From: Nocardioides sp. WS12
Lineage (GTDB): Bacteria; Actinomycetota; Actinomycetes; Propionibacteriales; Nocardioidaceae
Assembly (NCBI RefSeq): GCF_014108865.1
Contig: NZ_CP053928.1
Coordinates: forward strand, 1,426,001-1,490,000
DNA: 64,000 bases
Direction of reading: 5' to 3'
Shown here: positions 10,049 through 42,860 of the stretch, in pieces
How positions within the stretch are numbered: the first letter of the stretch is position 1
How the letters are laid out: every line of letters begins with the position of its first letter
Made by a program: the position numbers and the translations under genes
Notes under the pieces: generated by a model
Told to the model about the DNA's origin: nothing
The model's input: the letters and a program-made list of their open reading frames with translations, nothing else
Databases searched by the model: none

Positions 10049-10083
10049 GGTCCTGATGCTTTCACTCGTGGGCTGGATCACCC

Positions 10084-10112
10084 TTGTCGTCCGTTCATAA
10101 CTTCGTTATTCT
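10084..10112 (+). promoter_or_regulatory. Promoter and TetR operator of the crotonase operon
   Basis: TTGTCG (10084-10089), 17-base spacer and TATTCT (10107-10112) form a good sigma-70-type promoter. The palindrome ATAACTTCGTTAT (10097-10109) fills the spacer and overlaps the -10 box, a standard repressor position. The ATG at 10142 has GAGGAAAG upstream. Confidence 0.7.
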
Positions 10113-10141
10113 AGCGGAACGCAACGAGGAAAGCAGGCGTC

Positions 10142-11116
10142 ATGGCGGAGAAGGAAACGGGTCACCTCGAGATCGAGGAACGCGGAGCAGTGGTCGTCGT
10201 ACGCATCGATGGCGGACCGCGGCAGGTGTTCGGCCCCGACATCGCCGCCGAACTGGAGACGCTGGTCGACCGGGTGGACCGCGACCCCGACATTCGCGCG
10301 GTGGTCTTCACGGGCACCCACCCGGACCGGTTCGTCAGCCACGCCGAGGTCCGTTGGCTCCAGGAGGGCGGCGCGGCTGTCCCGGCTGTCGGTCGACGAG
10401 GGGCATCGGCGCTCGCGCGCACGGCGTACGGCGTCAACAAGGCCAGTGCCGCGCTGGCCCCCGCCCTCCGCAACACCCCGCTGTGGCCGGCCGTCGAGCT
10501 CGAGAGCCTGCACCAGACGTTCCTCAAGATGAATCGCAGCGGCGTCATCTTCATAGCGGCACTCAACGGCTCAGCCCTGGGCCTGGGTGCGGAGTTCGCG
10601 TGGGCCAACGACCTGCGCGTGATGGCCGACGGCGACTACTTCATCGGGCAGCCCGAGATCCTGCTCGGCATCATGCCGGGCGGCGGCGGCACCCAGCGCC
10701 TCACTCGACTGATCGGCACCCACCGGTCGCTGGTTGCGATCCTGGAGGGCAAGCCGTTCACGCCGGCCGAAGCCCTTGCGTTCGGCGCGCTCGACGACGT
10801 CGTACCGCAGGAGGAAGTGCTGGATCGGGCGCTGGAACTGGCCGCGCACTTCGGGGCCCGCACCAAGGAATCGGTGGCCGCGATCAAGCGCGCCGTCTAC
10901 CTCGGCGGCTCGATGTCGCTGGAGGACGGCCTGCACGTGGAGCGCACCGAGTTCCTGAGGCAGGCCCTGTCGAAGGAAGGTCAGCGTCTGATGACGGGGT
11001 ACATGGCGGACACTGAGGCGAGCGGCGAGTTGCCGCTCTACAGCGGCGACACGTTCGAACGCGCCATCGCTGAGGGCTCGGTTCCCCGCACCCAGAGCGA
11101 GGTGTCGGCGCGATGA
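10142..11116 (+). CDS. Enoyl-CoA hydratase/isomerase (crotonase) family protein
   Basis: A crotonase-fold protein of 324 residues acting on acyl-CoA thioesters. The oxyanion-hole region ALNGSALGLGAEFAWANDLR carries E151, and GQPEILLGIMPGGGGTQRL carries E172, the positions of both catalytic glutamates of enoyl-CoA hydratase. A roughly 50-residue insertion (75-125) before the active site is unusual; the family is normally about 260 long. Stop and next start overlap (ATGA), and in the locus at 29803 the same two proteins are fused, so hydratase and hydrolase probably act in succession. The precise reaction (hydration, isomerisation or retro-aldol) cannot be read from the sequence. Confidence 0.85.
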   Translation: MAEKETGHLEIEERGAVVVVRIDGGPRQVFGPDIAAELETLVDRVDRDPDIRAVVFTGTHPDRFVSHAEVRWLQEGGAAVPAVGRRGASALARTAYGVNKASAALAPALRNTPLWPAVELESLHQTFLKMNRSGVIFIAALNGSALGLGAEFAWANDLRVMADGDYFIGQPEILLGIMPGGGGTQRLTRLIGTHRSLVAILEGKPFTPAEALAFGALDDVVPQEEVLDRALELAAHFGARTKESVAAIKRAVYLGGSMSLEDGLHVERTEFLRQALSKEGQRLMTGYMADTEASGELPLYSGDTFERAIAEGSVPRTQSEVSAR

Positions 11117-12015
11117 GCACCAAGAAGGTCACCCGCCTCGACGTCCGTTTCCCGTCCGGCGACGCGGACTGCGCGGCCTGGTTGCACCTGCCCGCCGGTG
11201 TCTCGTCGCCGCCCGTCGTGGTGATGGGCCACGGGCTGGGCGCCACCCGCGACATGCGCCTGGACGCGTACGGCGAGCGCTTCGCGCAGGCCGGGATCGC
11301 CGCACTCTCCTTCACCTACCGGCACTTCGGCGACAGCGGGGGTAGCCCCCGCCAACTGCTGTCCATCAAGCGCCAGCTCGCCGACTGGGACGCCGCGCTG
11401 GCTCACGTGCAGACCCGGACGGATGTTGATCCGACGCGGGTCGCCGTGTGGGGCAGTTCCTTCGGTGGGGGCCACGCCATCACCGTGGCCTCCCGGCACC
11501 CCGAACTCCGGGCAGCGGTCGCGCAGTGTCCCTTCACTGACGGCCTGGCCTCGGCGCGCGCACTCGGCCCGCGAGGAACGGCGAAGGTGCTGCCCTCCGT
11601 GGCGCGTGACGTCTTCGCAGCCGCCCGCGGCCGCGCTCCCGTCACGATCCCGCTGGCCGCCGCCCCCGGCGAACTCGCCCTGATGAACGCACCCGATGCG
11701 CTGGACGGCTACCTGGCTCTGGTGCCGGACGGCGGCACCTTCGTCAACGAGGTCGCCGCGCGGGTCGCCCCGACGATCACGACGTACCGCCCTGGTAAGG
11801 CCGCGCGCCGCGTGAAGCCGCCGATCCTGTTCTGCATCACCAATCACGACACGGTCACGCCGGCTGCCCAGACTCTCGCGTACGCGAAGACCGCTCCGCG
11901 CGGCGAGATCAAGGAGTACGACGCCGGCCACTTCGACATCTACCTGGGCGACGCCTTCGAGGACGTCGTCGCCGACCAGGTCGAGTTCCTGACCCGTCAC
12001 CTCCGGAAGGCCTGA
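11113..12015 (+). CDS. Alpha/beta hydrolase
   Basis: The 300-residue product is a serine hydrolase of the dienelactone-hydrolase/FrsA-like group. It has the oxyanion motif VVVMGHGLGATRD (about 36-47), nucleophile S116 in WGSSFGGG, an Asp in CITNHDTVTP and the catalytic His in YDAGHFDIY. It is cytoplasmic, with no signal peptide. It overlaps the crotonase gene by 4 bases and is followed after 5 bases by a CoA ligase. Likely tasks are thioester, ester or C-C bond hydrolysis of the crotonase product; this is inference from the fusion partner at 29803. Confidence 0.85.
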   Translation: MSTKKVTRLDVRFPSGDADCAAWLHLPAGVSSPPVVVMGHGLGATRDMRLDAYGERFAQAGIAALSFTYRHFGDSGGSPRQLLSIKRQLADWDAALAHVQTRTDVDPTRVAVWGSSFGGGHAITVASRHPELRAAVAQCPFTDGLASARALGPRGTAKVLPSVARDVFAAARGRAPVTIPLAAAPGELALMNAPDALDGYLALVPDGGTFVNEVAARVAPTITTYRPGKAARRVKPPILFCITNHDTVTPAAQTLAYAKTAPRGEIKEYDAGHFDIYLGDAFEDVVADQVEFLTRHLRKA

Positions 12016-12020
12016 TCCCG

Positions 12021-13511
12021 GTGCACCTTGCTTCCGTCCCTGATCACCGCGCACAAATGGACCCGAACGGTCGGGCTGTTTCCGATGCGGCCCGGTCGCT
12101 CACCAACGCGGACCTGCTCCAGCAGGTGGCCGCGGCAGCGGAGCACCTGCGCGACCTCGGTGTCGGGCCGGCCGACGTCGTGGCGCTCAAGCTCAGCAAC
12201 AGGGTCGAGTTCGTCGTACTCCTGTTCGCCGCATGGCGACTGGGCGCGACTGTCACCCCGGTGAATCCCGGTCTCACCGAGACCGAGGTCGCCCGGCAAC
12301 TCGATGACGCGAAGGCCCGCCTCCTTGTCGCCGAGAGCGAGGAGGATCTGTTCATGGAGTGTGCGGGCCTGGCCGTCGACAATCTGCGCCGCACGGCCCA
12401 CGACCCCATCCACGAGCCGAAGATCGATGACGCGGCGTTGGCTCTGCTGATCTACACGAGCGGGACCACCGGGGTGCCGAAGGGCGTGATGCTCGACCAC
12501 GCCAACCTGCAGGCGATGGTCGAGATGGGCCGGCAGGGACTCGGTGTCGGTGCTGACGACCGGTGTCTGCTGATCCTTCCGCTGTTCCATGTCAACGGCA
12601 TCGTGGTCAGCGTCCTGCTGCCGCTCGCCACGGGCGCGAGCGTGGTCATCGTGAGCCGGTTCAAGCCGCACACGTTCTTCGACCTGATCGAGGCCGAGCG
12701 GCCGACGTACTTCAGTGCGGTGCCCACGATCTACGCGATGCTGGCGGCGCGCCCGGCCGACGTCACTCCCGACACGTCCTCGGTGCGCTTCGCGGTCTGC
12801 GGAGCCGCCCCGGCGTCCGCCGAACTGTTGCAGCGCTTCGAGGACCGCTACGGGTTCCCCTTGATCGAGGGCTACGGCCTCTCCGAGGCGACCTGCGGTT
12901 CGACGATCAATCCGGTCGACGGACCACGTCGAGCCGGCACCGTCGGACTGCCCTTCCCCGGCCAGGAACTGCGGATCCTTGACGCCGACGGTGCCGAGGC
13001 GGCGCAGGGAACCGCCGGCGAGGTCGTCGTCCGCGGCGCGAACGTCATGCGCGGCTACCTCGGGCGACCCGACGAGACGGCGAAGGTCATCGTCGACGGC
13101 TGGCTGCACACCGGCGACGTCGGACTCCTCGACGCCGAGGGCTACCTCACCCTCGTCGGACGCTCGAAGGACATGATCATCCGCGGCGGCGAGAACATCT
13201 ATCCCAAGGAGATCGAGGACGTCCTCGCCGCGCACCCGTCCGTGCTCGAGGCAGCCGTCATCGGTGTGCCTGACCCGGTCTGGGGCGAGGTCGTCGTCGC
13301 GTACGTCGAAGCGTCGCCCGACCGCGTGATCGACGTCGATGACCTGAAGCGGCACTGCGCGTCGGAACTGTCCGGCTACAAGCGACCGGTCGCATTCCAC
13401 GTGCTCGACGCCCTGCCGCGCAATGCTGTCGGCAAGATCGCCAAACCCGTGCTGCGCACTTCTGCCCAGCGCAACGAGACCATCGAGAACCCTGCACAGA
13501 AGGTTGGCTGA
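12021..13511 (+). CDS. Acyl-CoA synthetase (AMP-forming, class I adenylate-forming)
   Basis: An ANL-superfamily ligase of 496 residues that activates a carboxylic acid with ATP and CoA. Motifs are the P-loop LIYTSGTTGVPKGVML, YGLSEATCG (A5), HTGDVG with GRSKDMIIRGGENIYPKEIE (A7-A8) and the acyl-adenylating Lys in PRNAVGKIAK. It begins at GTG. It is the third gene of the operon starting at 10142 and is followed one base later by a reductase gene. The side-chain specificity is unknown. Confidence 0.9.
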   Translation: MHLASVPDHRAQMDPNGRAVSDAARSLTNADLLQQVAAAAEHLRDLGVGPADVVALKLSNRVEFVVLLFAAWRLGATVTPVNPGLTETEVARQLDDAKARLLVAESEEDLFMECAGLAVDNLRRTAHDPIHEPKIDDAALALLIYTSGTTGVPKGVMLDHANLQAMVEMGRQGLGVGADDRCLLILPLFHVNGIVVSVLLPLATGASVVIVSRFKPHTFFDLIEAERPTYFSAVPTIYAMLAARPADVTPDTSSVRFAVCGAAPASAELLQRFEDRYGFPLIEGYGLSEATCGSTINPVDGPRRAGTVGLPFPGQELRILDADGAEAAQGTAGEVVVRGANVMRGYLGRPDETAKVIVDGWLHTGDVGLLDAEGYLTLVGRSKDMIIRGGENIYPKEIEDVLAAHPSVLEAAVIGVPDPVWGEVVVAYVEASPDRVIDVDDLKRHCASELSGYKRPVAFHVLDALPRNAVGKIAKPVLRTSAQRNETIENPAQKVG

Positions 13512-13512
13512 C

Positions 13513-14517
13513 ATGAAGGCATTCGTCGTCGAGAAGTACGGCAAGGACGGCCTCCGCGCGGTCGACGTACCCGAACCCCAAGTGGGTCCGCGTGACGTCC
13601 TGATCCGGGTTCGCGCCGCGAGCATCAACCCGCTGGACAAGATGGTCCGCAACGGCGAGTTCAAACAGTTGCTCAAGTACAAGACGCCGTTCGCGCTCGG
13701 CCACGACCTGGCGGGCGTGGTGGCCCGGGTCGGCGCTGACGTCCGGTCGTTCGCGGTCGGCGACGAGGTCTACGCACGCCCACGCGACCTGCGCATTGGC
13801 GCCTTCGCCGAGTCCATCGCGGTCGACCAGGACGACGTCGCCCTCAAGCCGGCCAGCCTCACCATGGAGGAGGCAGCCGCCGTACCGCTCGTGGCGCTCG
13901 CCGCGTGGCAGGCGCTGGTCGACGTGGCCGACGTGCAGCCCGGACAGAAGGTTCTCGTCCATGCCGGCGCGGGTGGCCTGGGCTCGACGGTCATCCAGGT
14001 CGCGCGGCACCTCGGCGCGCACGTCGCCACCACTGCTCGTGGGGACGAGGCCGACCGGCTCCGAGCCCTCGGTGCCGACGAGGTCATCGACTACACGACG
14101 ACCGACTTCGCTGACGTCCTCTCCGGATACGACGTCGTCCTTGACTCGCTCGGCGGCGAGAACCTGACGAAGTCCCTCACGGTGCTCAAGCCTGGGGGCC
14201 TGGCGATCAGCGTGGTCGGTCCTCCCGACCCGGCCTTCGCGTCACAACTCGGCCAGCCGTTGCTGAAGCCGGTCATGGCGGTGCTGGGTCGCAAGGTCCG
14301 CGCGCAGGCCCGGAAGCTCGGTGTCCGGTATTCGTTCTTCTTCATGCGGGCCGACGGCGCCCAACTCGCAGCCCTGGCCACGCTGTACGACGCCGGGGTG
14401 CTCAAGCCCGTGCTCGACCGCACCTTCCCGTTCGACCGCACCCTCGATGCGATGGCCTACGTCGAGCAGGGCAAGGCCAACGGCAAGATCGTCGTCACGC
14501 TCGAGGAAACCGCATGA
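13513..14517 (+). CDS. NADP-dependent quinone oxidoreductase-like enzyme (zinc-free MDR)
   Basis: A medium-chain dehydrogenase/reductase of 334 residues lacking zinc ligands. It shows the GroES-like start (IRVRAASINPLDKMVRNGE), GHDLAGVVARVG and the nucleotide-binding VLVHAGAGGLGSTVIQVARH. Such enzymes reduce enones or quinones, using NADPH. ATG follows the ligase stop by one base and its stop overlaps the next start (ATGA), so it is translated with the operon. The true start at 13513 fits the family N-terminus MKAFVVEKYG. Confidence 0.88.
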   Translation: MKAFVVEKYGKDGLRAVDVPEPQVGPRDVLIRVRAASINPLDKMVRNGEFKQLLKYKTPFALGHDLAGVVARVGADVRSFAVGDEVYARPRDLRIGAFAESIAVDQDDVALKPASLTMEEAAAVPLVALAAWQALVDVADVQPGQKVLVHAGAGGLGSTVIQVARHLGAHVATTARGDEADRLRALGADEVIDYTTTDFADVLSGYDVVLDSLGGENLTKSLTVLKPGGLAISVVGPPDPAFASQLGQPLLKPVMAVLGRKVRAQARKLGVRYSFFFMRADGAQLAALATLYDAGVLKPVLDRTFPFDRTLDAMAYVEQGKANGKIVVTLEETA

Positions 14518-15362
14518 TCGAGACACAGTCGGGTCGCACGGCCCTCGCCGCGCCCACCCGGCGGATCCAGGCAGCCGGCACCCACTTCGCCTACCGCGAC
14601 CACGGCCCCACCTCGGGCATCCCGGTCGTGTTCCTACACCACTTCACCGCGGTGATCGATGACTGGGACCCGCGCGTCATCGACGGCATCGCAGCCGACC
14701 GACGCGTGATCACCTTCGACAACCGGGGCATTGGTGGCTCGGGCGGACGGACGCCGGCCACCGTCGAGGCCATGGCTGACGACGCAATCGCGTTCCTGCG
14801 CGCCCTCGATCTCGGCCCTGTCGACCTGATGGGCTTCTCGCTCGGCGGCTTCGTCGCACAGGCCATCATCGAGCGTGAGCCCGCGCTGGTCCGTCGCCTG
14901 GTCCTGACCGGTACCGGCCCGGCAGGCGGAGCGGGCGTCGGTGAGTTCAACAGGCGGATGGCCAGCGACACCCTGCGTGGAGCGCTCACGTTGAGAGACC
15001 CCAAGCCGCTGCTCTTCTTCACCCGCACGCCGAACGGCAAGGCGGCCGCAGATGCCTACATGGCTCGGATCAGTGAACGCACCGACGACCGCGTCCGTCG
15101 TACGACGATCCGCAACGTCGCCGCGCAGATCACAGCAATCCACCGCTGGGGCGCCCGCGAACCCATGGACCTGACGGTGGTGGAGCATCCCGTGCTTGTC
15201 GCGAACGGTGAGGACGACCGGATGGTGCCGACGCGCAGCTCGTTCGACCTGGCGCACGACCTGCCGAATGCAACGCTGCGGATCTACCCCGACGCCGGTC
15301 ACGGCGGTGTGTTCCAGCACCACGACCGGTTCGTCGCGGACGTGCTGGCGTTCCTGCGCTGA
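14514..15362 (+). CDS. Alpha/beta hydrolase (first of three close paralogues)
   Basis: A 282-residue alpha/beta hydrolase with VVFLHHFTAVIDDWDPRVID in the oxyanion region, FDNRGIGGSGG, nucleophile Ser in MGFSLGGFVAQ, Asp in NGEDDRMVP and His in DAGHGGVFQHH. The HHFTAV signature replaces the usual HGxxG. Two paralogues with the same signature are at 19021-19857 and 21237-22088. It is the last gene of the operon from 10142 and probably cleaves an ester, lactone or C-C bond; substrate unknown. Confidence 0.87.
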   Translation: MIETQSGRTALAAPTRRIQAAGTHFAYRDHGPTSGIPVVFLHHFTAVIDDWDPRVIDGIAADRRVITFDNRGIGGSGGRTPATVEAMADDAIAFLRALDLGPVDLMGFSLGGFVAQAIIEREPALVRRLVLTGTGPAGGAGVGEFNRRMASDTLRGALTLRDPKPLLFFTRTPNGKAAADAYMARISERTDDRVRRTTIRNVAAQITAIHRWGAREPMDLTVVEHPVLVANGEDDRMVPTRSSFDLAHDLPNATLRIYPDAGHGGVFQHHDRFVADVLAFLR

Positions 15363-15390
15363 CATTGCCAGCGCAGGAACGCCCGACAGA

Positions 15391-16095
15391 TCAGCCGCGC
15401 AGCTCGGGGTAGAGCGCCTCGACGGGCTGGCTCAGTGCGGCCTTGACTCCGGCGGTCACCTCGTCGGCGATGACCTCGTACTCGCCGGCCTCGATGGCCG
15501 CGTACACGGCATGGACGAGGTCGGCCGGCTCCATCTTCGGGCCGTCCGCGTGCTCGGCCATCGCCGTGTCGACGTAGCCCATGTGGACTCCGACCACGTG
15601 GACGCCCTGGGGCGCCAGCTCGAGGCGGATCGAGTTGGTGGCCGACCAGAGGGCTGCCTTGGACGCGCTGTAGACGCCGCCGAAGGCGTACCAGCTCGCG
15701 ACCGAGTGCACGTCGACGATCACCGACGTCGCGTGCGCGGTGAGCACCGGAGCGAACGCCTTGGCCATGAGGACCGGCCCGAAGAAGTTGGTCTCCATGC
15801 CGTCGCGCAACTCGGCCTCGGTGAGTTCGAGGATGCTGGCGCTGGCGGGGAGGGAGCCGGCGTTGTTCACGAGCACCGTGACGTCGCTGGCCGCCGCGAC
15901 GACCGCGGCCACCGAGGCGGCATCGTTGACGTCGAGGGTCAGCGGCACGATGCGTTCGTCGTCCCAGGTGCGGGGCGTGCGGGCCGTTGCGTAGACCTTG
16001 GTGGCGCCGCGGGCCAGGGCGTCGTGGACGAACTCGGTTCCGATGCCGCCGTTGGCTCCGGTGACGAGGACGACGGCTTCCTTGAGTGAGGGCAT
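15391..16095 (-). CDS. Short-chain dehydrogenase/reductase
   Basis: An SDR of 234 residues with TGANGGIG at the N-terminus, VNNAG and catalytic YSASK. The start MPSLKEAVVLVTG at 16095 has AGGA about 11 bases upstream. It is about as long as, and clearly a paralogue of, the SDR at 26417-27109: both share YATARTPR-x-W-(D/N)-D and similar C-termini ending in ALYPxL. It is divergent from the tetR at 16189, with a shared operator half-site between them, so its expression is probably controlled by that regulator. Confidence 0.87.
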   Translation of the reverse strand: MPSLKEAVVLVTGANGGIGTEFVHDALARGATKVYATARTPRTWDDERIVPLTLDVNDAASVAAVVAAASDVTVLVNNAGSLPASASILELTEAELRDGMETNFFGPVLMAKAFAPVLTAHATSVIVDVHSVASWYAFGGVYSASKAALWSATNSIRLELAPQGVHVVGVHMGYVDTAMAEHADGPKMEPADLVHAVYAAIEAGEYEVIADEVTAGVKAALSQPVEALYPELRG

Positions 16096-16123
16096 GTGAG
16101 TCGGCTTCCTGAGTGGTTGAATG

Positions 16124-16139
16124 ACGGTCATAATATTAC
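16124..16139. promoter_or_regulatory. Candidate TetR operator (15391/16189 intergenic)
   Basis: ACGGTCATAATATTAC here matches 14 of 16 bases of ACGGTCGTTATATTAC on the minus strand at 16835-16850, in front of the OYE operon. The two sites bracket the tetR gene at 16189, suggesting a single regulator for both transcription units. Confidence 0.5.
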
Positions 16140-16188
16140 ACACGGCAGGTAATCGACTACGCTCTGATCAACAGTGAGGGGAGGCGTG

Positions 16189-16761
16189 ATGGCGCGCTAC
16201 GGCAGGGAACACAAGGAAGCGACGCGGCAACGCATCGTCGAATCGGCGGGCAATCGCTTCAAGCAGAGCGGCGTCGACGCCTCGGGCATCGCCACCCTCA
16301 TGGCCGAGGTCGGGCTGACGAATGGCGCGTTCTATGCGCACTTCGAATCCAAGGACGACCTCGTTGCGACCGTCGTCGCCGAGCAGGTGCGCGCCCAGGT
16401 GGAGCGGATCGCCGCCCTTCCTGCCGGCCGGGCCGGTGTCGAGGAATTCATCCGTGACTACCTGTCGGTGGAGCACCGCGACAACCCGGCGAGCGGCTGC
16501 CCCTCGGCTGCCCTGCTCGACGAGATCGCCCGGTTCACCGATGCCACCCGGCAGGGCTACACCGACGGCGCCGGCGCCATCATCGACGAGATCGCGACCC
16601 GGTTGTCGCCACGGAATCCGGCGGGAGCGCGCGCCCGGTCCATCGGCCTGTTCACGCTGTTGGTCGGCACCCTCCAGTTGTCGCGCGCCGTGGCGGACCA
16701 GGAGCTCTCGCTCGAGGTCCTGGCGTCCGGGATCGAGAACGCCCGCGCCTTCCTGCGCTGA
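16189..16761 (+). CDS. TetR family transcriptional regulator
   Basis: The 190-residue product carries a TetR HTH (IATLMAEVGLTNGAFYAHFE, recognition helix FYAHF) and a helical ligand domain that contains the PSAALLDEIAR segment often seen in regulators of redox and hydrolase genes. ATG at 16189 follows GGGGAGG; an upstream GTG would add 5 residues. Genes on both sides (SDR at 15391, OYE operon at 16878) carry the same operator-like sequence. Confidence 0.9.
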   Translation: MARYGREHKEATRQRIVESAGNRFKQSGVDASGIATLMAEVGLTNGAFYAHFESKDDLVATVVAEQVRAQVERIAALPAGRAGVEEFIRDYLSVEHRDNPASGCPSAALLDEIARFTDATRQGYTDGAGAIIDEIATRLSPRNPAGARARSIGLFTLLVGTLQLSRAVADQELSLEVLASGIENARAFLR

Positions 16762-16827
16762 CTCTGGTTCGTCCGGCCCGGACGTCGGGTGGATCGAGTC
16801 GGTCACACCCCCTTGCGCCAATTGTCG

Positions 16828-16851
16828 TACGATCGTAATATAACGACCGTA
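16828..16851. promoter_or_regulatory. Inverted-repeat operator before the OYE operon
   Basis: TACGATCGT (16828-16836) and ACGACCGTA (16843-16851) pair at 8 of 9 positions around AATATA. The site lies 26 bases before the ATG at 16878, next to the GAGGAGC-type ribosome site. Confidence 0.65.
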
Positions 16852-16877
16852 AGCCAATCGACGCATGAGGAGCACCG

Positions 16878-18125
16878 ATGTCCCCGCTCAGCGAACCCCT
16901 TGATCTCCCGTGCGGCGTACGGCTGCCGAATCGCATTGCAAAGGCGGCGCTGAGCGAGGCGCTGGGCGATGCCGGGAACTCGCCCGACGAGCGGCTCGTC
17001 ACGTTGTACCGCCGGTGGGCCCAGGGCGGCTACGGGCTGCTGATCACCGGCAACATCATGGTGGATCGCAACCATCTCGGAGAGCCGGGCAATGTGGTGA
17101 TCGAGGACGATCGTGCGCTCGCCCAGCTCACCGAATGGACCAAGGCGGCTCACGATGGCGGCGCGGCGATCTTCGCCCAGCTCAACCACCCCGGTCGGCA
17201 GTCCAACCTGCTCGCTGTCGGCCATACGCCGGTCGCTCCCAGTCCGGTGGCGCTCGCCATGCCCGGTGCCGCGACACCGCGCGAGCTCACCGCCGCCGAG
17301 ATCGAGGACATCATCGACCGGTTCGCGACGTCCGCCGCGGTCTGCGAAGAGGCCGGATTCGACGGCGTCCAGCTCCACGCCGCCCACGGCTACCTGATCA
17401 CCCAATTCCTCTCGCCGCTGACCAACCTGCGCACCGACGAATGGGGCGGCACGCCGGAGCGGCGGATGCGCTTCCTGATCGAGGTCGTCCGACGCGTCCG
17501 GCAGCGAGTGAGCCCCGGGTTCGCCGTCTCCGTGAAGCTGAACTCGGCGGACTTCCAGCGAGGTGGCTTCACCGAGGCGGACTCGCGGGCCGTCGTGGCC
17601 GCACTCGCCAGCGAGTCCGTGGACCTGATCGAGGTTTCCGGCGGCAACTACGAGTCGCCGGCGATGGGTGGCTCCGCCGCCTCCTCGACCAGGGCACGCG
17701 AGGCCTACTTCCTGGAGTACGCGCGGTCGGTTCGCGGCGAAGCCGGTGCCGTGCCGATCGCCGTGACGGGCGGGTTCCGGACCCGGTCCGCCATGGAGGA
17801 GGCGGTCAACGCAGGCGACTGCGATCTCGTGGGCATGGCGCGACCCACCGTGACCACCACCGACGCGGCTCACGGGATCCTGGACGGAAGTACATCGGTG
17901 CTGGAGACCCACGAGATCCAGGCCGGCATGCGGAAGCTTCTCGGCCGCGTCACCGATGTGCAGGCGCTCGACGGGTTCCTGAACATCAGCTGGAACGTCG
18001 ACCAGTTGCACCGACTCGCGCGCGGCCTCGAGCCCGATCTGGACCGCGGCGCACTGGCCACGGCCGTGGCGATGGTACGACGCAACGGCCGGGTGTCGTT
18101 CCGCCCGAAGCGCGGCGTCGCGTGA
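16878..18125 (+). CDS. NADH:flavin oxidoreductase / Old Yellow Enzyme family
   Basis: An FMN-binding TIM-barrel reductase (415 residues) that reduces activated C=C bonds or oxidised flavin substrates with NAD(P)H. Visible are the N-terminal RLPNRIAKAALSE, FAQLNHPGRQ, the substrate-binding VQLHAAHGYLITQFLSP (H-x-x-H) and the FMN-phosphate loop VTGGFRT. There is no iron-sulfur or second flavin domain, so it is the short class. It heads an operon with the SDR (GTGA overlap) and hydrolase that follow. Confidence 0.9.
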   Translation: MSPLSEPLDLPCGVRLPNRIAKAALSEALGDAGNSPDERLVTLYRRWAQGGYGLLITGNIMVDRNHLGEPGNVVIEDDRALAQLTEWTKAAHDGGAAIFAQLNHPGRQSNLLAVGHTPVAPSPVALAMPGAATPRELTAAEIEDIIDRFATSAAVCEEAGFDGVQLHAAHGYLITQFLSPLTNLRTDEWGGTPERRMRFLIEVVRRVRQRVSPGFAVSVKLNSADFQRGGFTEADSRAVVAALASESVDLIEVSGGNYESPAMGGSAASSTRAREAYFLEYARSVRGEAGAVPIAVTGGFRTRSAMEEAVNAGDCDLVGMARPTVTTTDAAHGILDGSTSVLETHEIQAGMRKLLGRVTDVQALDGFLNISWNVDQLHRLARGLEPDLDRGALATAVAMVRRNGRVSFRPKRGVA

Positions 18126-19024
18126 CCCGCGAGTCCCGTACGTCGTACGACCTCACCGACAGGGTCGTGCTCATCACCGGCGGCAACGGCGGCATCGGTG
18201 CGGCGACCGGGCGCGAACTGCTCCGCCGTGGCGCGCGGCTCGTGGTCGCTGACATCGACGCCACGACGCCTGAGAAGGCGGCGGCGCTGGGTGCGGACCG
18301 GGTGCTCGGCTGCGTCGCCGACGTCCGGAGCCGGTCCTCCCTCGACGACGTCGTGGCCCAGGCGGTGGACCGCTTCGGCCGCGTCGACATCGTGATGGCC
18401 AACGCCGGGCTGCTGGCCAAGGCGGCAACCCTGCGCAACACGCCGACCAGTGACGTCGAGGCGACGCTGGCGGTCAACGTGACCGGTGTCGTCAACACGG
18501 TCGCGGCCGGGATCGAGCAGGTGATCGAGAACCAGGGGCAGATCGTCCTGATCAGCTCGGTCTTCGCGTTCATCAACGGCATGGGGACCATCCCCTACGC
18601 GATGAGCAAGGCAGCCGTCGAACAGCTCGGCCGAGGGCTCCGACTCGAACTCGCCGACCACGACGTCTCCGTGCTGACGGCCTACTTCTCGCTCGTCGAC
18701 ACCGAGATGATCAAGCACGGCGTCGACGAGGACGACGTGGTCCTCGAACTTCTTTCGACCCTGCCGAAGCCGATGCTCAAGCGGGTCACTCCTGCGTCCG
18801 CCGCGACGGTGCTCGCCGACGGGCTCGAGCGACGCTCGGTCCGGGTCATCCACCCGAGCGTGTGGCGACCGGTCTCGGCGTTGCGAGGCCTCCTCGGCCC
18901 GAGTCTCGATGCGCGATTCGCCGGCGACCGCCGCATCCTCGACGTCCTCGCTCGCCTCGACGCACGTGGCGCTGCAGTTCCCGCACCCGTTCCCGCAGCA
19001 TCCTCACGAAGGAAGAAGTCATGA
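18122..19024 (+). CDS. Short-chain dehydrogenase/reductase
   Basis: The 300-residue SDR starts at GTG overlapping the OYE stop. Its motifs are LITGGNGGIGAATG, MANAG and catalytic YAMSK. It has a long C-terminal extension (ALRGLLGPSLDARFAGDRRI) like the SDRs at 8532 and 58021, resembling the group annotated near steroid and isoprenoid degradation genes. The stop overlaps the following hydrolase start (ATGA). It probably oxidises the hydroxyl partner of the OYE substrate. Confidence 0.87.
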   Translation: MTRESRTSYDLTDRVVLITGGNGGIGAATGRELLRRGARLVVADIDATTPEKAAALGADRVLGCVADVRSRSSLDDVVAQAVDRFGRVDIVMANAGLLAKAATLRNTPTSDVEATLAVNVTGVVNTVAAGIEQVIENQGQIVLISSVFAFINGMGTIPYAMSKAAVEQLGRGLRLELADHDVSVLTAYFSLVDTEMIKHGVDEDDVVLELLSTLPKPMLKRVTPASAATVLADGLERRSVRVIHPSVWRPVSALRGLLGPSLDARFAGDRRILDVLARLDARGAAVPAPVPAASSRRKKS

Positions 19025-19857
19025 CCACCTGGCGCGACACCCCGACCAAGACCATCACGATCGACGGCACCTCGTTCGCCTACCGGGAGCTGGGCACGCC
19101 GGGCGGCGTACCGGTGGTGTTCCTGCACCACTTCACGGCCGTCCTCGACGACTGGGACCCCCGGATCATCGACGGCGTCGCATCGCAGCACCACGTCATC
19201 GCCTTCGACAACCGCGGTGTCGGCTCGACCGGCTCCCGCGTCCCCAACGACCTCGAGCAGATGGGCGCCGACGCCATCGCGTTCATCCGGGCGCTCGAGT
19301 ACGACCAGGTCGACCTCTTCGGCTTCTCGCTCGGCGGCGCAGTGGCGCAGATGGTTGCGCTGGAGGAGCCCGGCCTGGTTCGCCGGATGGTGCTCGCTGG
19401 CACCGGCCCCCGTGGCGGTGGCGGTATCTGGAAGATGCCGTTCATCGTGGGCGGCGCCTACGCCAAGGCCTTCGCCACGCGCAAGGACCCCCGTCATTTC
19501 CTGTTCTTCCCCCGCAACGCCGAGGGCAAGACGGCGGCGAAGGAGTACTTCGCCCGTCTGGACGAACGCACGGGTGATCGCAGCAAGCCGGTCTCCCGAC
19601 AGGCAGCCGTTGCGCAGTTGCGGGCGATCACCACCGGCGGGCTGCACGCCCCCGATGACCTCTCGACCATCAAGGCGCCCGTCCTGGTTGCCAACGGCGA
19701 CCACGACCTGATGGTCGCCAGCGAGCACTCCGCCGACATGGCACGGCGATTCCCCGAGGCCCGATTGGTCGTCTATCCCAACTCGGGCCACGGCGGTGTC
19801 TTCCAGCACCACCGGGAGTTCGTGCCCGAGGTCCTCGCCTTCCTGGCCGACCAGTGA
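19021..19857 (+). CDS. Alpha/beta hydrolase (second of three paralogues)
   Basis: The 278-residue product shares VVFLHHFTAVLDDWDPRIID, FDNRGVG, nucleophile Ser in FGFSLGGAVAQ, Asp in NGDHDLMV and His in NSGHGGVFQHH with the hydrolase at 14514. Conservation of the whole HHFTAV region and the GHGGVFQHH block indicates recent common origin. It closes the OYE-SDR-hydrolase operon and probably hydrolyses the product of that pair. A 118-base gap with no recognisable feature follows. Confidence 0.87.
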   Translation: MTTWRDTPTKTITIDGTSFAYRELGTPGGVPVVFLHHFTAVLDDWDPRIIDGVASQHHVIAFDNRGVGSTGSRVPNDLEQMGADAIAFIRALEYDQVDLFGFSLGGAVAQMVALEEPGLVRRMVLAGTGPRGGGGIWKMPFIVGGAYAKAFATRKDPRHFLFFPRNAEGKTAAKEYFARLDERTGDRSKPVSRQAAVAQLRAITTGGLHAPDDLSTIKAPVLVANGDHDLMVASEHSADMARRFPEARLVVYPNSGHGGVFQHHREFVPEVLAFLADQ

Positions 19858-29802: not shown

Positions 29803-31761
29803 ATGATGGACATCGAATTCACCTTCCCCTCGATCGAGGTGCGGCGCCACGGGCAGCACGTCCTGGTGGCTCGGTTGTGCACTGATCTCCATGGACTTCT
29901 GGGCCGGGATGCCGCCCGCGACCTTGCGTTGTTCGTGAAGAAGGCGGATCGAGACCCCAGCGTTCGTGCCGTGGTGCTGACGGGCTCCCACCCGGAGCGC
30001 TTCGTGGGTCACGCTGACCTGGCGTGGTTGCAGGAGGACGGATCGGTTGTCCCGCCCCTGGGTCGCCGGGTGATGTCCGCCGTGGTGTGGCTCGCGCTGA
30101 TGCTGAACTCCAACCCGATCACGAGGTGGGTCGCCCGGCGCACTCCGGTTCAGGGCGCTCTCCAACTCGACGACATGCACAAAACGCTCAACCTCATGTC
30201 GACCAGCTCAACCATTTTCGTGGCGGCGCTGAACGGGTCCGCCCTGGGGCTGGGCGCAGAGATCGCGTGGGCCTGCGATGTGCGGGTGATGGCTGACGGT
30301 GACTACGTGATCGGCCATTTGGAGGTTCTGTTGGGCTTCGCGCCCGGCGCCGGGGGAACCCAACGTCTGACAACGCTCGTGGGTCCGCACCGCGCGCGGC
30401 GACTCATGCTGGAAGGGTCGCCCTTGTCACCCGCCGAGGCCCTGCGGCTCGGTGTGGTGGATGAGGTCGTACCCACGTCGGAAGTAGTGCAGGTGGGAGT
30501 GCGTCAGGCAGAGATCCTCGCAGCTCGACCCCAGTCGGCGATCGGTGCGATCAAGCGCTCCGTGAATGCTGGCATCACTCGCGGGCTCCGCTCAGGCTTG
30601 CGGTGGGAGCGCAGCGAGTTCTTGTCCTCGCTTCCGCAACGGGAAGCCCAACAGATCATGCTCGACTACCTGAGCGACACCGAACGCGACGGCGAGCTGC
30701 CCGTCTACCGATCAGGAGGCTACGGAAGCGCGTTGGCCCGCGGCCGAGCCAACGGGGGAGAGCCAGAGCTCGATCCCAGCCCGGCGCCGAAGCTGCCCGA
30801 TAGTGCGACCTATGGTGTCCAGACGGTGCAGTTCAGGTCTGGTTCGTCGTGGTGTCGAGCCTGGCTCTATGTTCCTCACCACGCTGGGGCTGATTCCCCA
30901 GTGCCGGTGGTCGTGATGGGCCACGGTTTGGGTGCAACTCGCGATCTGGGACTGGCTCCTTACGCGGAAGAGTTCGCCGATCGGGGCATGGCCGCCTTGG
31001 TCTTCACCTACCGAGGTCTGGGTGACAGTGGTGGGCATCCGCGGCAGATCCTCTCGATGAAGCGACAGCTCCAGGACTGGGACGCAGCGATCGCGCACGC
31101 AGTCTCGCTCCCTCAGTTGGACAGCGAGCGGATGGCGATCTGGGGGAGTTCGCTGGGTGGTGGACATGCGATCGCCACGGCGGCACGTCATCCAGAGTTG
31201 GCGGCGATGGTCGCCCAGTGCCCCTTCACCGACGGCGTCGCCTCCGCCCTCGCGCTCGGACCGGGCAAGTCGATGGCACTCGCCTCGCCGATCGTGCGTG
31301 ATCTCGTTGCTGTGGCGCGTCGTCGGCCGGCTGTCATGGTCCCGATCGCAGCGGTTCCCGGCGGGGCAGGCTTGATGAGCACGGTCGACGCCCTGAAGGG
31401 GATGCACGCGCTGGTTCCCGTCGGGCATCAGTGGCGCAACGAAGCGGCGGCGCGCAGTGTCCTGAGCGTCCTTGGCTACCGGCCGGGCCGCTCCGCGCAC
31501 CGCATCGCCGTCCCGTCCCTGATCTGCATCAGCACAACCGACACGGTGGCGCCACCGAAAACGGCCGAACGGCAACTCCGGCGATCGCCGTACGCCGACG
31601 TACGCACCTATGAGGCGGGGCACTTCGCCTTCTACGTCGGTGCCGCATTCGACCAATTGGTCACGGAGCAGGCGGAGTTCCTCGAAGCGCACCTGAGGCC
31701 CGATGTACGGGGCGCTCCGACGATCAGCGCGTCGAGGGGCAGCGATGAGCAGACTCCATGA
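29803..31761 (+). CDS. Crotonase-alpha/beta hydrolase fusion protein
   Basis: A 652-residue two-domain enzyme. Residues 1-312 are a crotonase with ALNGSALGLGAEIAWACD (E153) and GHLEVLLGFAPGAGGTQRL (E174); residues about 335-640 are an alpha/beta hydrolase with VVVMGHGLGATRD, nucleophile S450 in WGSSLGGG and His in YEAGHFAFY. The 20-residue Pro-rich linker is GGEPELDPSPAPKLP. The halves correspond in order and length to the separate overlapping genes at 10142 and 11113, so this is a true fusion of a functional pair. It begins an operon with an SCP2-like protein, an LDI-family protein and a DUF169 protein. Confidence 0.9.
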   Translation: MMDIEFTFPSIEVRRHGQHVLVARLCTDLHGLLGRDAARDLALFVKKADRDPSVRAVVLTGSHPERFVGHADLAWLQEDGSVVPPLGRRVMSAVVWLALMLNSNPITRWVARRTPVQGALQLDDMHKTLNLMSTSSTIFVAALNGSALGLGAEIAWACDVRVMADGDYVIGHLEVLLGFAPGAGGTQRLTTLVGPHRARRLMLEGSPLSPAEALRLGVVDEVVPTSEVVQVGVRQAEILAARPQSAIGAIKRSVNAGITRGLRSGLRWERSEFLSSLPQREAQQIMLDYLSDTERDGELPVYRSGGYGSALARGRANGGEPELDPSPAPKLPDSATYGVQTVQFRSGSSWCRAWLYVPHHAGADSPVPVVVMGHGLGATRDLGLAPYAEEFADRGMAALVFTYRGLGDSGGHPRQILSMKRQLQDWDAAIAHAVSLPQLDSERMAIWGSSLGGGHAIATAARHPELAAMVAQCPFTDGVASALALGPGKSMALASPIVRDLVAVARRRPAVMVPIAAVPGGAGLMSTVDALKGMHALVPVGHQWRNEAAARSVLSVLGYRPGRSAHRIAVPSLICISTTDTVAPPKTAERQLRRSPYADVRTYEAGHFAFYVGAAFDQLVTEQAEFLEAHLRPDVRGAPTISASRGSDEQTP

Positions 31762-32320
31762 CGGTCTCCTGTTCCTGCTTCTGCGAGGACTCGGCTTCCT
31801 GATGAGCACCGGATCACGATTCATGCCATCCCTGCGCTCCCAGATCACCAGGTCCATGACGTTCGAGGTGTCAGCGGGGGACAACGTCTGCCAATACTGG
31901 GAGTTCGACGCAACCCACCGCCGAATTCGCTCCGGCTCAGGTCCGAGTCGTCAGCCCGATGGTGCAGTCCACTTCCAGAGCAGCGGACTTGCCCTGCGGG
32001 CGCTCACCTCAACCACGACCGTGGATCGAGTCGTGACGGGCATTCACCGAGGCTCGGTCACCTTGCAGGGAAGCGCATTCGTGCTGCTGTGGTTCCACGG
32101 ATTGACCCGCAAGTTCGTCAAGCGTGGTCGCACAGCAGGGCCGAACTACGAGCTTCCCCACCGCTATCTCGAGCCCGATCCGAATACATGGGGCGGCGAG
32201 TCCGTCGTCATCGAGCCAGCCGTGACACGGCTCGCCCCTGAGTGGACCGATGCGTGGCGCGCACGATCCACCCTTCTGCAGGTGCGATCCACCACCGACG
32301 AACCAGTTCTGGAGCCTTGA
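31745..32320 (+). CDS. SCP2-like (sterol carrier type) protein, tentative
   Basis: A 191-residue protein starting inside the end of the fusion gene (17-base overlap). A hydrophobic N-terminus (LLFLLLRGLGFLMS) is followed by a segment whose pattern resembles SCP2 domains: PDGAVHFQSSGLALRALT, then GIHRGSVTLQGSAFVLLWFH, with the RGxVxLxG turn. SCP2 domains bind acyl-CoA or sterol-like lipids. The match is by eye and weak; an unrelated lipid-binding or membrane-associated protein is possible. Position directly before the LDI-family gene suggests substrate presentation. Confidence 0.45.
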   Translation: MSRLHDGLLFLLLRGLGFLMSTGSRFMPSLRSQITRSMTFEVSAGDNVCQYWEFDATHRRIRSGSGPSRQPDGAVHFQSSGLALRALTSTTTVDRVVTGIHRGSVTLQGSAFVLLWFHGLTRKFVKRGRTAGPNYELPHRYLEPDPNTWGGESVVIEPAVTRLAPEWTDAWRARSTLLQVRSTTDEPVLEP

Positions 32321-32322: not shown

Positions 32323-33903
32323 ATGGAGTTCACACGAAGGACGACCACACACGTCAGCCAGGGACAACATTCCATGAGGACGAGCACTCGGCAGGCTGGG
32401 CTCAACGACCGCTCACTGGGTTGGCTGCGGTTCATGTGGGACAAGGCCACCACGCCTGACGACTGGTCCGATCAGGGCACACCTCACGCGTGGTGGGACC
32501 GCTACAGCGAGCCCCCCATGTGCGCGTTCCCGAGATTCGACGTTGCCGAGATGGGCTACGTCCTGCCCATGATGATCGAGGCGACGCCAGCGTGGCGCGA
32601 AGGGTACATCCGAATCCTCGATGAGCTGATTGCCCGCTACCAGTCCTTCTGGGGCGCCATTGACTGGAACACCCTCATCGGCCCTGACCCCAACGTGGAT
32701 CGGTATCCGCCGGAATGGCTGATGGTGATCCCCGAACACCTGCGGGGGAGCTATCCGCCACCCGGATGGACAGGCAACGGGATCGAACCCTGGGGACTGC
32801 AGCCGGACCCGATCGGTTGCGACGGCAACCTCTTTTACCGCGGCTGGTTGACGCTCCTGATGAGCATCCGTCGCTACATCTCCGGGGACTCGACCGAAGC
32901 GGACTCGTTCCAGGTGACGGGATATCAAAACCGGAAGTTCACGTGGAGTCACGAGCGGATGGCGCAGTTCATGTCGAACCAACTCGTGGCTCGACCGCAG
33001 GGCGCCCACTGTGAGAACACCAAGATCTGGCCGTTCTGCATGAGTGCGGCGGGCCTCGGACTGCAGTTGTACGACGCCGTGCTCGGAACGTCCGTGAATG
33101 ACGCGTTCCGGGGATGGATCAAATACGCCGAACAGCACTACATGGGGCGCGACCGCCACGGCCGGATCGACTGGGTTGCCTTCTACTACGACCCCATCGA
33201 GGACGCGACCATGACGTTCCCCGGGGCCGTCAACGCGTACAGCTCCCTGATCCTGCTCCATTACCTCACTCCGCAGGACCAGCAGTTGGGCATCGACCTG
33301 TACGAATCCTCGATGCGTCGACTCGGCTGGAGTAACCCGAAGATCCCGGTCGTGCAACTGGCTGATGACCCTCAACTGCTCTCCACCGGGCTGTGGATGG
33401 CTCGCGAACTCGGAGATCAGGTCACCTGGGACCGGCTCCGCGAGGTGGCGGAGCGCGAGTTCGAACCACGGTGGTTCGGCGAGGATGACTCCCGCTTCGC
33501 CTTCTGGTTCCAGGAGTCCACCCAGTGGCCCCGCGGACAACTCAATGCCACCATGATGATGGTCGAATGTGCCGAGCCCGGAGCATGGTCGCGGGTGTTC
33601 AACTCGCCGAACCTGGACATGCACCACCAACCGACTGTCCACGGCGTCGACTATCCGACGGTCGGCATCCGGCGAACCCATCACGACGCCGGGCGCGGTG
33701 CCCTGGAGATTGACACCTATGCCGCGACCCCGCGACTGCGGGGCACGAACACGTCGTTCGTCGTCAACCAACTCCCGGTGCTCGATCGTCTGAGCGTGCA
33801 TCTCGACGGTCGACCTCACTCAGCGTGGAAGCCCGAGGGTTCGACGTCCATCCGCATCGACCTCAGCGTCGACTCCCACCATGTCCTCATCACCTACCTG
33901 TGA
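32323..33903 (+). CDS. Linalool dehydratase/isomerase (LDI) family protein
   Basis: A 526-residue soluble protein rich in Trp and Tyr, with the LDI pattern: CENTKIWPFCMSAAGLGLQL carries C230 and C239, nine residues apart like the active-site cysteines of Castellaniella LDI (C170/C179), followed by the YDAVLGT helix. LDI reversibly dehydrates the tertiary alcohol linalool to myrcene and isomerises it to geraniol without cofactor; it forms an (alpha/alpha)6 barrel. Here no periplasmic signal peptide is visible, unlike the Castellaniella enzyme. ATG follows GGAGCC. Family assignment is from motif memory and needs a profile search; substrate may be another isoprenoid or steroid alcohol. Confidence 0.65.
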   Translation: MEFTRRTTTHVSQGQHSMRTSTRQAGLNDRSLGWLRFMWDKATTPDDWSDQGTPHAWWDRYSEPPMCAFPRFDVAEMGYVLPMMIEATPAWREGYIRILDELIARYQSFWGAIDWNTLIGPDPNVDRYPPEWLMVIPEHLRGSYPPPGWTGNGIEPWGLQPDPIGCDGNLFYRGWLTLLMSIRRYISGDSTEADSFQVTGYQNRKFTWSHERMAQFMSNQLVARPQGAHCENTKIWPFCMSAAGLGLQLYDAVLGTSVNDAFRGWIKYAEQHYMGRDRHGRIDWVAFYYDPIEDATMTFPGAVNAYSSLILLHYLTPQDQQLGIDLYESSMRRLGWSNPKIPVVQLADDPQLLSTGLWMARELGDQVTWDRLREVAEREFEPRWFGEDDSRFAFWFQESTQWPRGQLNATMMMVECAEPGAWSRVFNSPNLDMHHQPTVHGVDYPTVGIRRTHHDAGRGALEIDTYAATPRLRGTNTSFVVNQLPVLDRLSVHLDGRPHSAWKPEGSTSIRIDLSVDSHHVLITYL

Positions 33904-33923: not shown

Positions 33924-34604
33924 ATGTCGCCCTACGCAGACCTCAACAACCGTCTTGGCGCTCTGCTGACCCTCACCAGTGCGCCCGTCGCGGTCACCTT
34001 CAGGGAAACTGCCCCGTCGGGAGACGTGGATCCAGTCGCACCAGCGCCGGCTGGGTGTTGCTTCTGGGCGCCCGCCCGGGAGCAACGTCTTGACACCATT
34101 CCTGCCGACCACGCGAACTGCAGCGTGGGCAGCTACACCCACGGCCTCCTGCCGTTGGCGGAGGCCGCAGCAGGAGCAGACACCGCTGCTCTGCTGGCCA
34201 GTGGGTGGGTGGGCGAAGCCGATCTCGTGGGCGCCCCGGTGCTGCCGTTCGCCCCGGCATCGATCACCTACGAACCCCTGGCGGAGGCGACCAGTCCCGA
34301 TGTCGTCCTGCTGCGGCTCACGGCGTCTGCTGTGATGACACTTGCAGGAGCGATTCCGGAGCTGAAGTTGGTGCCCAAACCGCAGTGTGTCATCGTCCCG
34401 CTCGCCTACTCAGGCGAGGTCGCCGTCAGCCCGGGCTGTGCGGTGAGCCGGACCCGGACTTCGTTGCCCGACGATGAAATGACGTGCGCTGTGCCGGCGG
34501 CGAATCTCCATTCGTTCATCGATCGGTTGACCGCCTCGAGTGTGGCCGATCGAGCAGTCAGCGAGTTCGCGGCAGCCGACATGGCAGCCAACTTCAGCGG
34601 TTGA
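33924..34604 (+). CDS. DUF169 family protein
   Basis: A 226-residue protein with the DUF169 features: an N-terminal LxSAPVAVTF segment, GCCFWAPA, DHANCSVGSYTHG (conserved D-H-x-x-C-x-x-G) and a late SPGCAVSRTRTSLPDDEM. Cysteines in three conserved places suggest metal or cluster binding, but the biochemical role of the family is unknown. GAAGGA lies 7 bases before the ATG. It closes the fusion-SCP2-LDI operon and so may serve the same reaction sequence. Confidence 0.78.
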   Translation: MSPYADLNNRLGALLTLTSAPVAVTFRETAPSGDVDPVAPAPAGCCFWAPAREQRLDTIPADHANCSVGSYTHGLLPLAEAAAGADTAALLASGWVGEADLVGAPVLPFAPASITYEPLAEATSPDVVLLRLTASAVMTLAGAIPELKLVPKPQCVIVPLAYSGEVAVSPGCAVSRTRTSLPDDEMTCAVPAANLHSFIDRLTASSVADRAVSEFAAADMAANFSG

Positions 34605-34704: not shown

Positions 34705-35520
34705 TCACGTGCCGATGGCCTCGTTGAACAGACCTGCATAGAACAGCTGGGCAATGATCGTGGCCGAGGCACTGATCAGCATCAGGTTGACGAGCATGGA
34801 CTGCGCCGTGGCATGGCCGACGCCCACAGGTCCGCCCTCCGCGGTGTACCCGAAGTAGCAGGAAACAAGTGTCACGATCACGGCCACGATGGTCGCCCAG
34901 AGCACTGCGATGGTGAGGTCGCGTGGGCTCTGGAACAGGAACAGGACGTAGTGGTACCCGCCCGGGGACACGGCGCCGAGCGCGTCGACGAAGAAGAACT
35001 TCGACGCGGCGAAGTGAATGCCCAGTGCGATGGTGAACATCGGCGGAACCACCACGATCGCGGCCATCAGGCGGGTTCCTACCAGGAACGGCAGGGACTG
35101 GACGCCCATCACCTCCATGCCGTCGATCTCCTCACTGATCCGCATGGCACCGAGCTCGGCAACGGTGCCGCAGCCGGCCTTTGCCGCCAGGACCCACCCG
35201 AACACGATCTGGGAGATCCCACGCATCATGGGCACCGCAGTGATGGAGCCCACGTAGCTCTCCAGCCCGATCCCTTCGAAGAGGAAGGTCCCGGTGATGC
35301 CAATGAGCGCCCCGAGCATGAAGAGCATGAAGAAGACGACCGGTGCATTCGACTTGATCATCAGCCCGACCTGCCGCATCACTTCGCTCGGGTAGAGCCG
35401 GAGCGCGGTGGGGACGGACTTGAACGCCTGGACAGAGAAGGAAACGAGCGAGCCCGCTCCCCGCAGAAGTGATGTGCCGGGCGCGTCGGATCCGGGAGCG
35501 CTGGTCCGGTCGGTGCTCAT
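34705..35520 (-). CDS. YrbE/MlaE-type ABC transporter permease (second subunit)
   Basis: A 271-residue permease with four to five membrane segments and the MlaE coupling motif ISEEIDGMEVMGVQSLPFLV facing the ATPase. Such YrbE proteins work in pairs with MCE proteins and an MceG/Mkl ATPase to import lipids such as sterols. The start overlaps the stop of its partner (ATGA). No MCE gene follows in the window, although YrbE pairs normally precede six of them. Confidence 0.9.
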   Translation of the reverse strand: MSTDRTSAPGSDAPGTSLLRGAGSLVSFSVQAFKSVPTALRLYPSEVMRQVGLMIKSNAPVVFFMLFMLGALIGITGTFLFEGIGLESYVGSITAVPMMRGISQIVFGWVLAAKAGCGTVAELGAMRISEEIDGMEVMGVQSLPFLVGTRLMAAIVVVPPMFTIALGIHFAASKFFFVDALGAVSPGGYHYVLFLFQSPRDLTIAVLWATIVAVIVTLVSCYFGYTAEGGPVGVGHATAQSMLVNLMLISASATIIAQLFYAGLFNEAIGT

Positions 35521-36392
35521 CGGAATCCTCCGAGTTCGGGGAAAAGGCCCAGGACGACTGCGTTGTAGCCCAACTGGAGGACGAACAGTGCGAGGAAGCA
35601 GACCACCACGCTCTGGTTGACCGCGCGGCCAAGGCCGGTCGATCCCCCCTGGGCGTGGAGGCCCTTGTAACTGGAGACGGTGGCGATGATCGTCCCGGCC
35701 AGCAAGCAGTTGACCACCATGGCGATCAGTTCGGTCTGACTCTGATTGATCCACAGGAACGAGTAGAAGTCGGGAGACTCGATCCCACCGATGAAGCTGG
35801 CGGCGAATTGGCAGGAGAGGATCGCGATCCACTGGGCAGGGATGCTGAGGAGGGTTGTGATGAGGATGACCGCGACGACCTTCGGCAGCACCAGGACCCG
35901 GATCGGGTCCACCCCCATGACCACCATGGCGTCGAGTTCCTCGCGGACCTTTCTCGAGCCGAGTTCGGCTGTGATCGAGGCTCCGATCACGCCTGCGACC
36001 AGCAGGGTGGAGACCCATACCGTGAAGGTTCGCGTGCAGTGGACGACCAGGAGTGGTCCGAAGTACTCACCCACACCGGCAAGGTTGACGAACTGCATGC
36101 CTGTGGTCGCGAGCGCTGTGAGGAAGCCGAAGATCCCGACCGCGATCGCGAACCACGACTTCGTGATGGTGAAGTGCATCTGCTCCACGACATCGCCCCA
36201 GTAGCCGCGTGGGTTCCGTACGGCGCTCCGCAAGACCTTGCCCAGCAACATCGCCATCCCGCCGACCTCGGCGACAAGGTCCCGGGGCCCGGACGGGATG
36301 AGGGCGACGGCGCGGTTCAGCCGGCCGTCGTATGGCCCCCCGGCCTCGATCGGCGGCCCTTCCGGAAGCACGCGCTGACTGCGTTCACGCAC
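35517..36392 (-). CDS. YrbE/MlaE-type ABC transporter permease (first subunit)
   Basis: A 291-residue permease starting at GTG, with an N-terminal amphipathic region (DLVAEVGGMAMLLGKVL), membrane segments at roughly 75-95, 110-130, 165-195, 215-235 and 255-280, and the coupling helix VREELDAMVVMGVDPIRVLV typical of YrbE A subunits. It overlaps the upstream membrane protein gene by 8 bases and its partner by 4. It should form the heterodimeric lipid-import channel with the protein at 34705. Confidence 0.9.
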   Translation of the reverse strand: MRERSQRVLPEGPPIEAGGPYDGRLNRAVALIPSGPRDLVAEVGGMAMLLGKVLRSAVRNPRGYWGDVVEQMHFTITKSWFAIAVGIFGFLTALATTGMQFVNLAGVGEYFGPLLVVHCTRTFTVWVSTLLVAGVIGASITAELGSRKVREELDAMVVMGVDPIRVLVLPKVVAVILITTLLSIPAQWIAILSCQFAASFIGGIESPDFYSFLWINQSQTELIAMVVNCLLAGTIIATVSSYKGLHAQGGSTGLGRAVNQSVVVCFLALFVLQLGYNAVVLGLFPELGGFR

Positions 36393-37161: not shown

Positions 37162-37212
37162 GGGGCGGCTCCTGTGGGTGCGATGACGTGATGGGCACCA
37201 CATTCGCATTCT

Positions 37213-40344: not shown

Positions 40345-40378
40345 GCCCACCTCTCTCGTACTGAAAGTGACATTCGCA

Positions 40379-42834: not shown

Positions 42835-42860
42835 GAACCCATCCCTAGGAGAACACCACC

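Follow-up and report, generated by a model that had tools for sequence, protein, structure and literature searches.

Gene Organization of the Locus

The window, i.e., the whole stretch of 64,000 nucleotides of the Nocardioides sp. WS12 genome that was analyzed, contains on its forward strand an operon that encodes, in this order, a crotonase (enoyl-CoA hydratase) fused to an alpha/beta hydrolase, a conserved protein of 191 aa, a protein related to linalool dehydratase/isomerase (LDI; hereafter, the window protein) and a DUF169 protein. This operon is kept in Nocardioides, Nocardia, Gordonia, Pseudonocardia and Streptomyces, some of its genes having been lost or split. The window protein is encoded by an open reading frame at 32323..33903 (+), and both these coordinates and the length of 526 aa, already given in an earlier note on this DNA, have been verified. 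The ATG at 32323 is separated from the stop codon of the preceding gene by 2 bases, and a GGAG sequence located 8 nt before it provides a good ribosome-binding site; the ATG at 32374 (residue 18) is an alternative possible start.

The fusion protein (652 aa; 29803..31761, +) is a crotonase-hydrolase fusion, as the earlier note had proposed, with matches to PF00378 and PF12146, and contains both catalytic Glu positions of the crotonase family as well as a nucleophile motif, G-S-S-L-G. Its counterparts in homologous loci are two separate genes (L009, L011), the crotonase only (L008) or the hydrolase only (L010). The 191-aa protein (31745..32320, +) has no Pfam match, but its gene lies beside that of the LDI-like protein in each of the close homologues, with 31–68% identity; its earlier description as SCP2-like is unsupported because none of seven orthologues matches an SCP2 family of Pfam, even at E<10. 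The DUF169 (COG2043) protein (33924..34604, +), correctly named from the start, matches PF02596 with 49.9 bits; its gene starts 20 nt past the stop codon of the LDI-like gene, with an AGGA ribosome-binding site, and is kept downstream in four other loci (L009, L010, L011 and L012).

The two MlaE/YrbE permease genes that had been noticed on the other strand (34705..36392, −; PF02405) are convergent with the operon. The region 34705–37209 (−) contains them as an orphan pair, preceded by a gene for a membrane protein of 274 aa that has multiple helices and matches no Pfam family, and no MCE domain (PF02470) is encoded between genome positions 1379663 and 1548703. The whole genome (5.2 Mb) contains 72 MCE-domain matches, in roughly a dozen mce operons.

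Upstream in the window, companion catabolic genes identified by synteny, Pfam matches and paralogy (8532..19857) encode an SDR, a TetR regulator, a crotonase and alpha/beta hydrolase pair, an acyl-CoA ligase, a zinc-type dehydrogenase, hydrolases and an OYE flavoenzyme. The crotonase-hydrolase pair of this cluster (10142–12015) is the second in the window and is paralogous to the fusion protein (48% and 54%), and the cluster is in large part common to the loci of Gordonia, Nocardioides immobilis and Nocardia vinacea. Synteny and the Pfam assignments, with their lipid and acyl-CoA catabolic genes, support the lipid-catabolic setting previously ascribed to the operon. On the other side of the operon, the genes at 39346–48272 encode a hydroxyacyl-CoA dehydrogenase, an FMO/BVMO-like flavoprotein, alpha/beta hydrolases, an acyl-CoA ligase, an AraC regulator and a zinc ADH, which looks like a cluster for ketone or alicyclic breakdown.

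Genes found near the homologues in other genomes include those for a Rieske oxygenase (L009), an mce operon (L011), a P450 and a luciferase-like enzyme (L015) and an MpaB/Lcp-type oxygenase (L008); in Nocardia vinacea, an mce operon with Mce4_CUP1 domains is located directly downstream. Together with the CoA-catabolic genes, these oxygenase and uptake genes suggest aerobic breakdown of a hydrophobic compound through CoA esters. No terpenoid-diagnostic, sterol-specific or linalool/myrcene-specific gene was recognized in the neighborhood. In two lineages far apart from each other, a gene for a DUF3556 membrane protein lies near that of the LDI-like protein (L008:17507-19309 and L015:12431-14290); the one DUF3556 gene of the window genome is far from the window, at 0.73 Mb, some 20 kb from an AtuA-type operon. 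The latter (L031, genome positions 743000–762000) comprises genes for AtuA, an acyl-CoA dehydrogenase, a carboxyltransferase and a biotin carboxylase, with a P450 nearby, an acyclic-terpene-like set.

Sequence Relationships and Fold

A single Pfam family, Ldi (PF18566), is detected in the window protein, with 41.3 bits over residues 161–384. Given that this score is above the curated cut-off of the family (26.1 bits) and that the E-value is 1.8e-10, the match is not due to chance; the NCBIfam search yielded no family. In the PDB, a sequence search with the window protein retrieved the LDI entries (4e-6) and one chance match, and when a profile of nine sequences was used, the value for LDI rose to 2.4e-16 with nothing else credible. 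When compared by hhalign with the LIS-type (linalool isomerase) Ldi proteins of Actinomycetota, the window protein aligned over residues 20–523 (432 columns, probability 99.4, E 1.4e-21). The profile search against the LDI Pfam family that the earlier note had called for therefore led to PF18566 and to no unrelated barrel family, and the assignment to the LDI family stands. The identity to LDI itself is only ~16–17%.

Two AlphaFold runs, with six input sequences each, produced weak models (mean pLDDT 55.3 and 54.4), and the first Foldseek match of such a model was LDI (5g1u, 4.2e-6). A second structure comparison also placed LDI first, with a Z-score of 14.4 for the full-length model, itself of low confidence. 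For the barrel alone, again in a low-confidence model, the Z-score against LDI was 14.9 over 285 residues (rmsd 4.5), compared to 12.8 for the next fold; the next-best folds are those of sugar epimerases. Thus, a structure prediction overlaid on LDI, the other check that had been suggested, returns LDI as the top fold, but the models are too weak for gauging whether C230 and C239 share a pocket. The predicted architecture comprises an (alpha/alpha)6 barrel (residues ~26–430) followed by a beta domain (residues ~430–526) that, in the model, resembles those of glycoside hydrolases.

Neither a hydrophobic segment nor a signal-like stretch exceeding the threshold was found in the window protein, in support of the cytoplasmic location suggested previously; most of the sampled proteins of LIS architecture have N-terminal hydrophobic segments. 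Taken together, the Pfam, PDB profile, hhalign and fold searches show that the window protein truly belongs to the LDI superfamily, as a divergent and soluble member. The label "LDI-like" holds for membership in the superfamily but not for identity with LDI, from which the protein differs by the replacement of an active-site His, the lack of a disulfide and its position in a deep, separate clade.

Catalytic Residues

The window protein contains cysteines only at positions 67, 166, 230, 239 and 416. Cys230 and Cys239, which the earlier note had singled out as a catalytic-like pair, align exactly with Cys170 and Cys179 of LDI, and Glu231 aligns with Glu171, so that the motif reads C-E-x7-C (codons at 33010..33039, +). 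In an alignment of 19 family proteins that range from near orthologues to proteins of LIS architecture, with LDI as the 20th sequence, both cysteines are kept in 19/19 as well as in LDI and are among only 13 window positions that are invariant over the 19. In one LIS-architecture protein (L029), Gln replaces the Glu that follows the first Cys. It has been demonstrated that swapping either catalytic Cys of LDI results in a folded yet inactive enzyme (PMC6600392).

Other parts of the LDI active site are not retained. His128 is counted among the key active-site residues of LDI (PMC12455561), but the aligned position is occupied by Trp in the seven closest homologues (Trp175 in the window protein; codon at 32845..32847, +), by Phe, Tyr or Trp in the others, and by His in LDI only. 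The absence of this His in the LIS-architecture proteins as well suggests that it is not required family-wide. The Cys48–Cys101 disulfide, which caps the channel and is essential in LDI, has no equivalent, with no Cys at the position of Cys101 in any aligned homologue. For Asp38 and Tyr44 of LDI, the N-terminal alignment is ambiguous, with D46, D47, D50 and D59 as candidate counterparts. The LDI enzyme proper (EC 4.2.1.127/5.4.4.4), a rare bacterial enzyme by which the terpene alcohol linalool is hydrated or dehydrated, is a homopentamer with the active site at the subunit interface.

Distribution and Evolution

Relatives are uncommon, being present in 2/216 genomes of the genus and 4/395 of the class, and the Ldi family as a whole is found in 7/396 genomes of the phylum. 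Homologues of named origin come from Gordonia asplenii (78% identity), N. immobilis (74%), Nocardia vinacea (71%), N. pocheonensis (70%), Pseudonocardia spinosispora (59%) and megaplasmids of two Streptomyces (57%); one genome of the same genus encodes a protein identical to that of N. immobilis. Mean column identity is 79% over six species. In Streptomyces sp. NBC_01136 (L014), the gene resides on a 1-Mb linear mobilizable plasmid and is annotated merely as encoding a hypothetical protein. A scan of viral contigs revealed no relative, and an apparent match in a Candidatus Omnitrophota sequence (L013) was discarded as false, the frame encoding an unrelated membrane protein.

In the phylogenetic tree, the window protein pairs with that of Gordonia (support 100/98) and the N. 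immobilis protein pairs with that of Nocardia. These pairings contradict the relationships between the organisms, suggesting horizontal transfer. Long, well supported branches separate the clade of the window protein from the LIS-type proteins and from LDI, which is represented in the tree by a fragment of 272 residues only. Another genome (G142; L006, L007) encodes three Ldi-superfamily paralogues, two of which are ~31% identical to the window protein and belong to a further subclade, and proteins of LIS architecture (L021, L023–L025, L027–L029) are scattered over several Actinomycetota families, with four in one genome (G631). A literature search, mostly limited to papers available without subscription, yielded no mention of PF18566 or of such an actinobacterial homologue.

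Predicted Function

From the homology to LDI and the invariance of both cysteines, the likeliest chemistry of the window protein is an acid/base reaction in which a tertiary or allylic alcohol loses or gains water or has it moved. We consider it more likely than not, on the strength of sequence, fold ranking, the precedent of a cytosolic catalytic part in LIS, and gene context, that the protein is a cytoplasmic, cofactor-free tertiary/allylic alcohol (de)hydratase/isomerase that functions in the CoA-linked breakdown of an isoprenoid-type lipid, the choice of such a lipid as the substrate being a guess. C230 and C239, together with a nearby acid, would protonate the tertiary or allylic hydroxyl and pass on the proton; water would then be lost, added or moved on the branched isoprenoid-type chain, and the acyl-CoA ligases, crotonases, alpha/beta hydrolases, dehydrogenases and the OYE flavoenzyme would carry the product into CoA-dependent breakdown. 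The points against this reading are Trp175 in place of His128, the low identity to LDI, the ambiguous placement of Asp38 and Tyr44, the weak models and the lack of a terpenoid-diagnostic neighbor, and another scaffold could be involved.

The main competing possibility, which we regard as unlikely, is that the LDI fold and the Cys pair have been kept for a different chemistry, for example isomerization, ring opening or a lyase reaction on a cyclic or acyl-CoA product of the crotonases. The loss of His128 fits this possibility, as do the C-terminal beta domain and long inserts, both absent from LDI, the rank of sugar epimerases as next-best folds, and the two crotonase/alpha-beta-hydrolase pairs of the cluster, possibly a ring- or C-C-cleaving combination. 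However, the sampled LIS-architecture proteins also lack this His, so that its loss need not imply new chemistry, and the invariant Cys pair favors the same acid/base step.

It is improbable that the window protein is a true LDI or LIS that interconverts myrcene, linalool and geraniol and feeds an acyclic-terpene (Atu-like) pathway. The catalytic Cys pair is shared, the cytosolic domain of Thauera LIS has the same size, and the same genome encodes an AtuA-type operon at 0.75 Mb; yet the protein belongs to a deep separate clade that has lost His128 and the disulfide, the Atu-like genes are 0.7 Mb distant, the operon shows no geraniol/geranial dehydrogenase signature, and there are no Atu genes among the annotated neighbors of the homologues.

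That a sterol side chain is dehydrated, or its 25-hydroxyl shifted, an option also considered in the earlier note, seems quite improbable. An LDI-like enzyme has been proposed to perform a 25- to 26-hydroxy shift in Sterolibacterium, whereas characterized actinobacteria use an NADH-dependent C26-hydroxylase instead (PMC3691188). Furthermore, no steroid-specific gene is found among the annotated neighbors. The YrbE permeases next door and the mce operon with Mce4_CUP1 downstream in Nocardia vinacea might point to sterols but carry little weight because the genome encodes 72 MCE domains, and we rejected the YrbE neighbors as sterol evidence, the pair in the window having no nearby MCE partner. 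Finally, the idea of a non-enzymatic or degenerate relative, for which the His replacement alone speaks, is very improbable in view of the high column identity over six species, the 13 superfamily-invariant residues and the conserved operon.

Returning to the (de)hydratase/isomerase reading, we tentatively envisage a third class of the LDI superfamily: soluble, cytoplasmic, cofactor-free (de)hydratases/isomerases that might rely on two Cys and a Glu without the His, convert an isoprenoid or alicyclic intermediate, present as an acid or linked to CoA, in an unrecognized aerobic pathway with crotonase, hydrolase and DUF169 partners, and have spread horizontally in Actinomycetota. Only two characterized enzymes of the superfamily appear in the literature consulted, the exported, oxygen-sensitive LDI and the membrane-anchored LIS. 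LDI is in demand as a route to dienes and chiral tertiary alcohols, and a soluble, disulfide-free clade in aerobic hosts would be an easier biocatalyst to handle. Such a clade would also help to tell the residues that are indispensable for eliminating water without a cofactor from those that are not, and it may mark an undescribed lipid or terpenoid pathway in soil actinobacteria.

Comparison with Known Enzymes

N-acetylglucosamine and cellobiose 2-epimerases and GH127 share with the window protein the general (alpha/alpha)6 barrel and a C-terminal beta domain of glycoside hydrolase type, but no sequence relation to them was found and their Z-scores are 12.8 or lower. The LDI of Castellaniella defragrans (LinD, PF18566, PDB 5HLR/5G1U) has the barrel fold, the C-E-x7-C motif and the profile match in common with the window protein. 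In contrast to LDI, to which it is ~16–17% identical, the window protein has Trp in place of His128, lacks the Cys48–Cys101 disulfide and the signal peptide, contains an extra C-terminal beta domain and is encoded in a different gene context.

The LIS of Thauera linaloolentis 47Lol consists of four N-terminal membrane helices and a cytosolic part of 505 aa, is active in the reduced form only and has no detected cofactor (PMC4791888). The membrane helices are absent from the window protein, and its clade differs from that of the LIS-architecture proteins. The likeness to the ~505-aa cytosolic part of Thauera LIS is by description, the alignment having been made with LIS-architecture proteins of Actinomycetota. 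Given that the hhalign span includes the C-terminal domain, and considering the build of LIS, the window protein comes nearest, in its overall architecture, to the cytosolic portion of LIS free of its membrane anchor.
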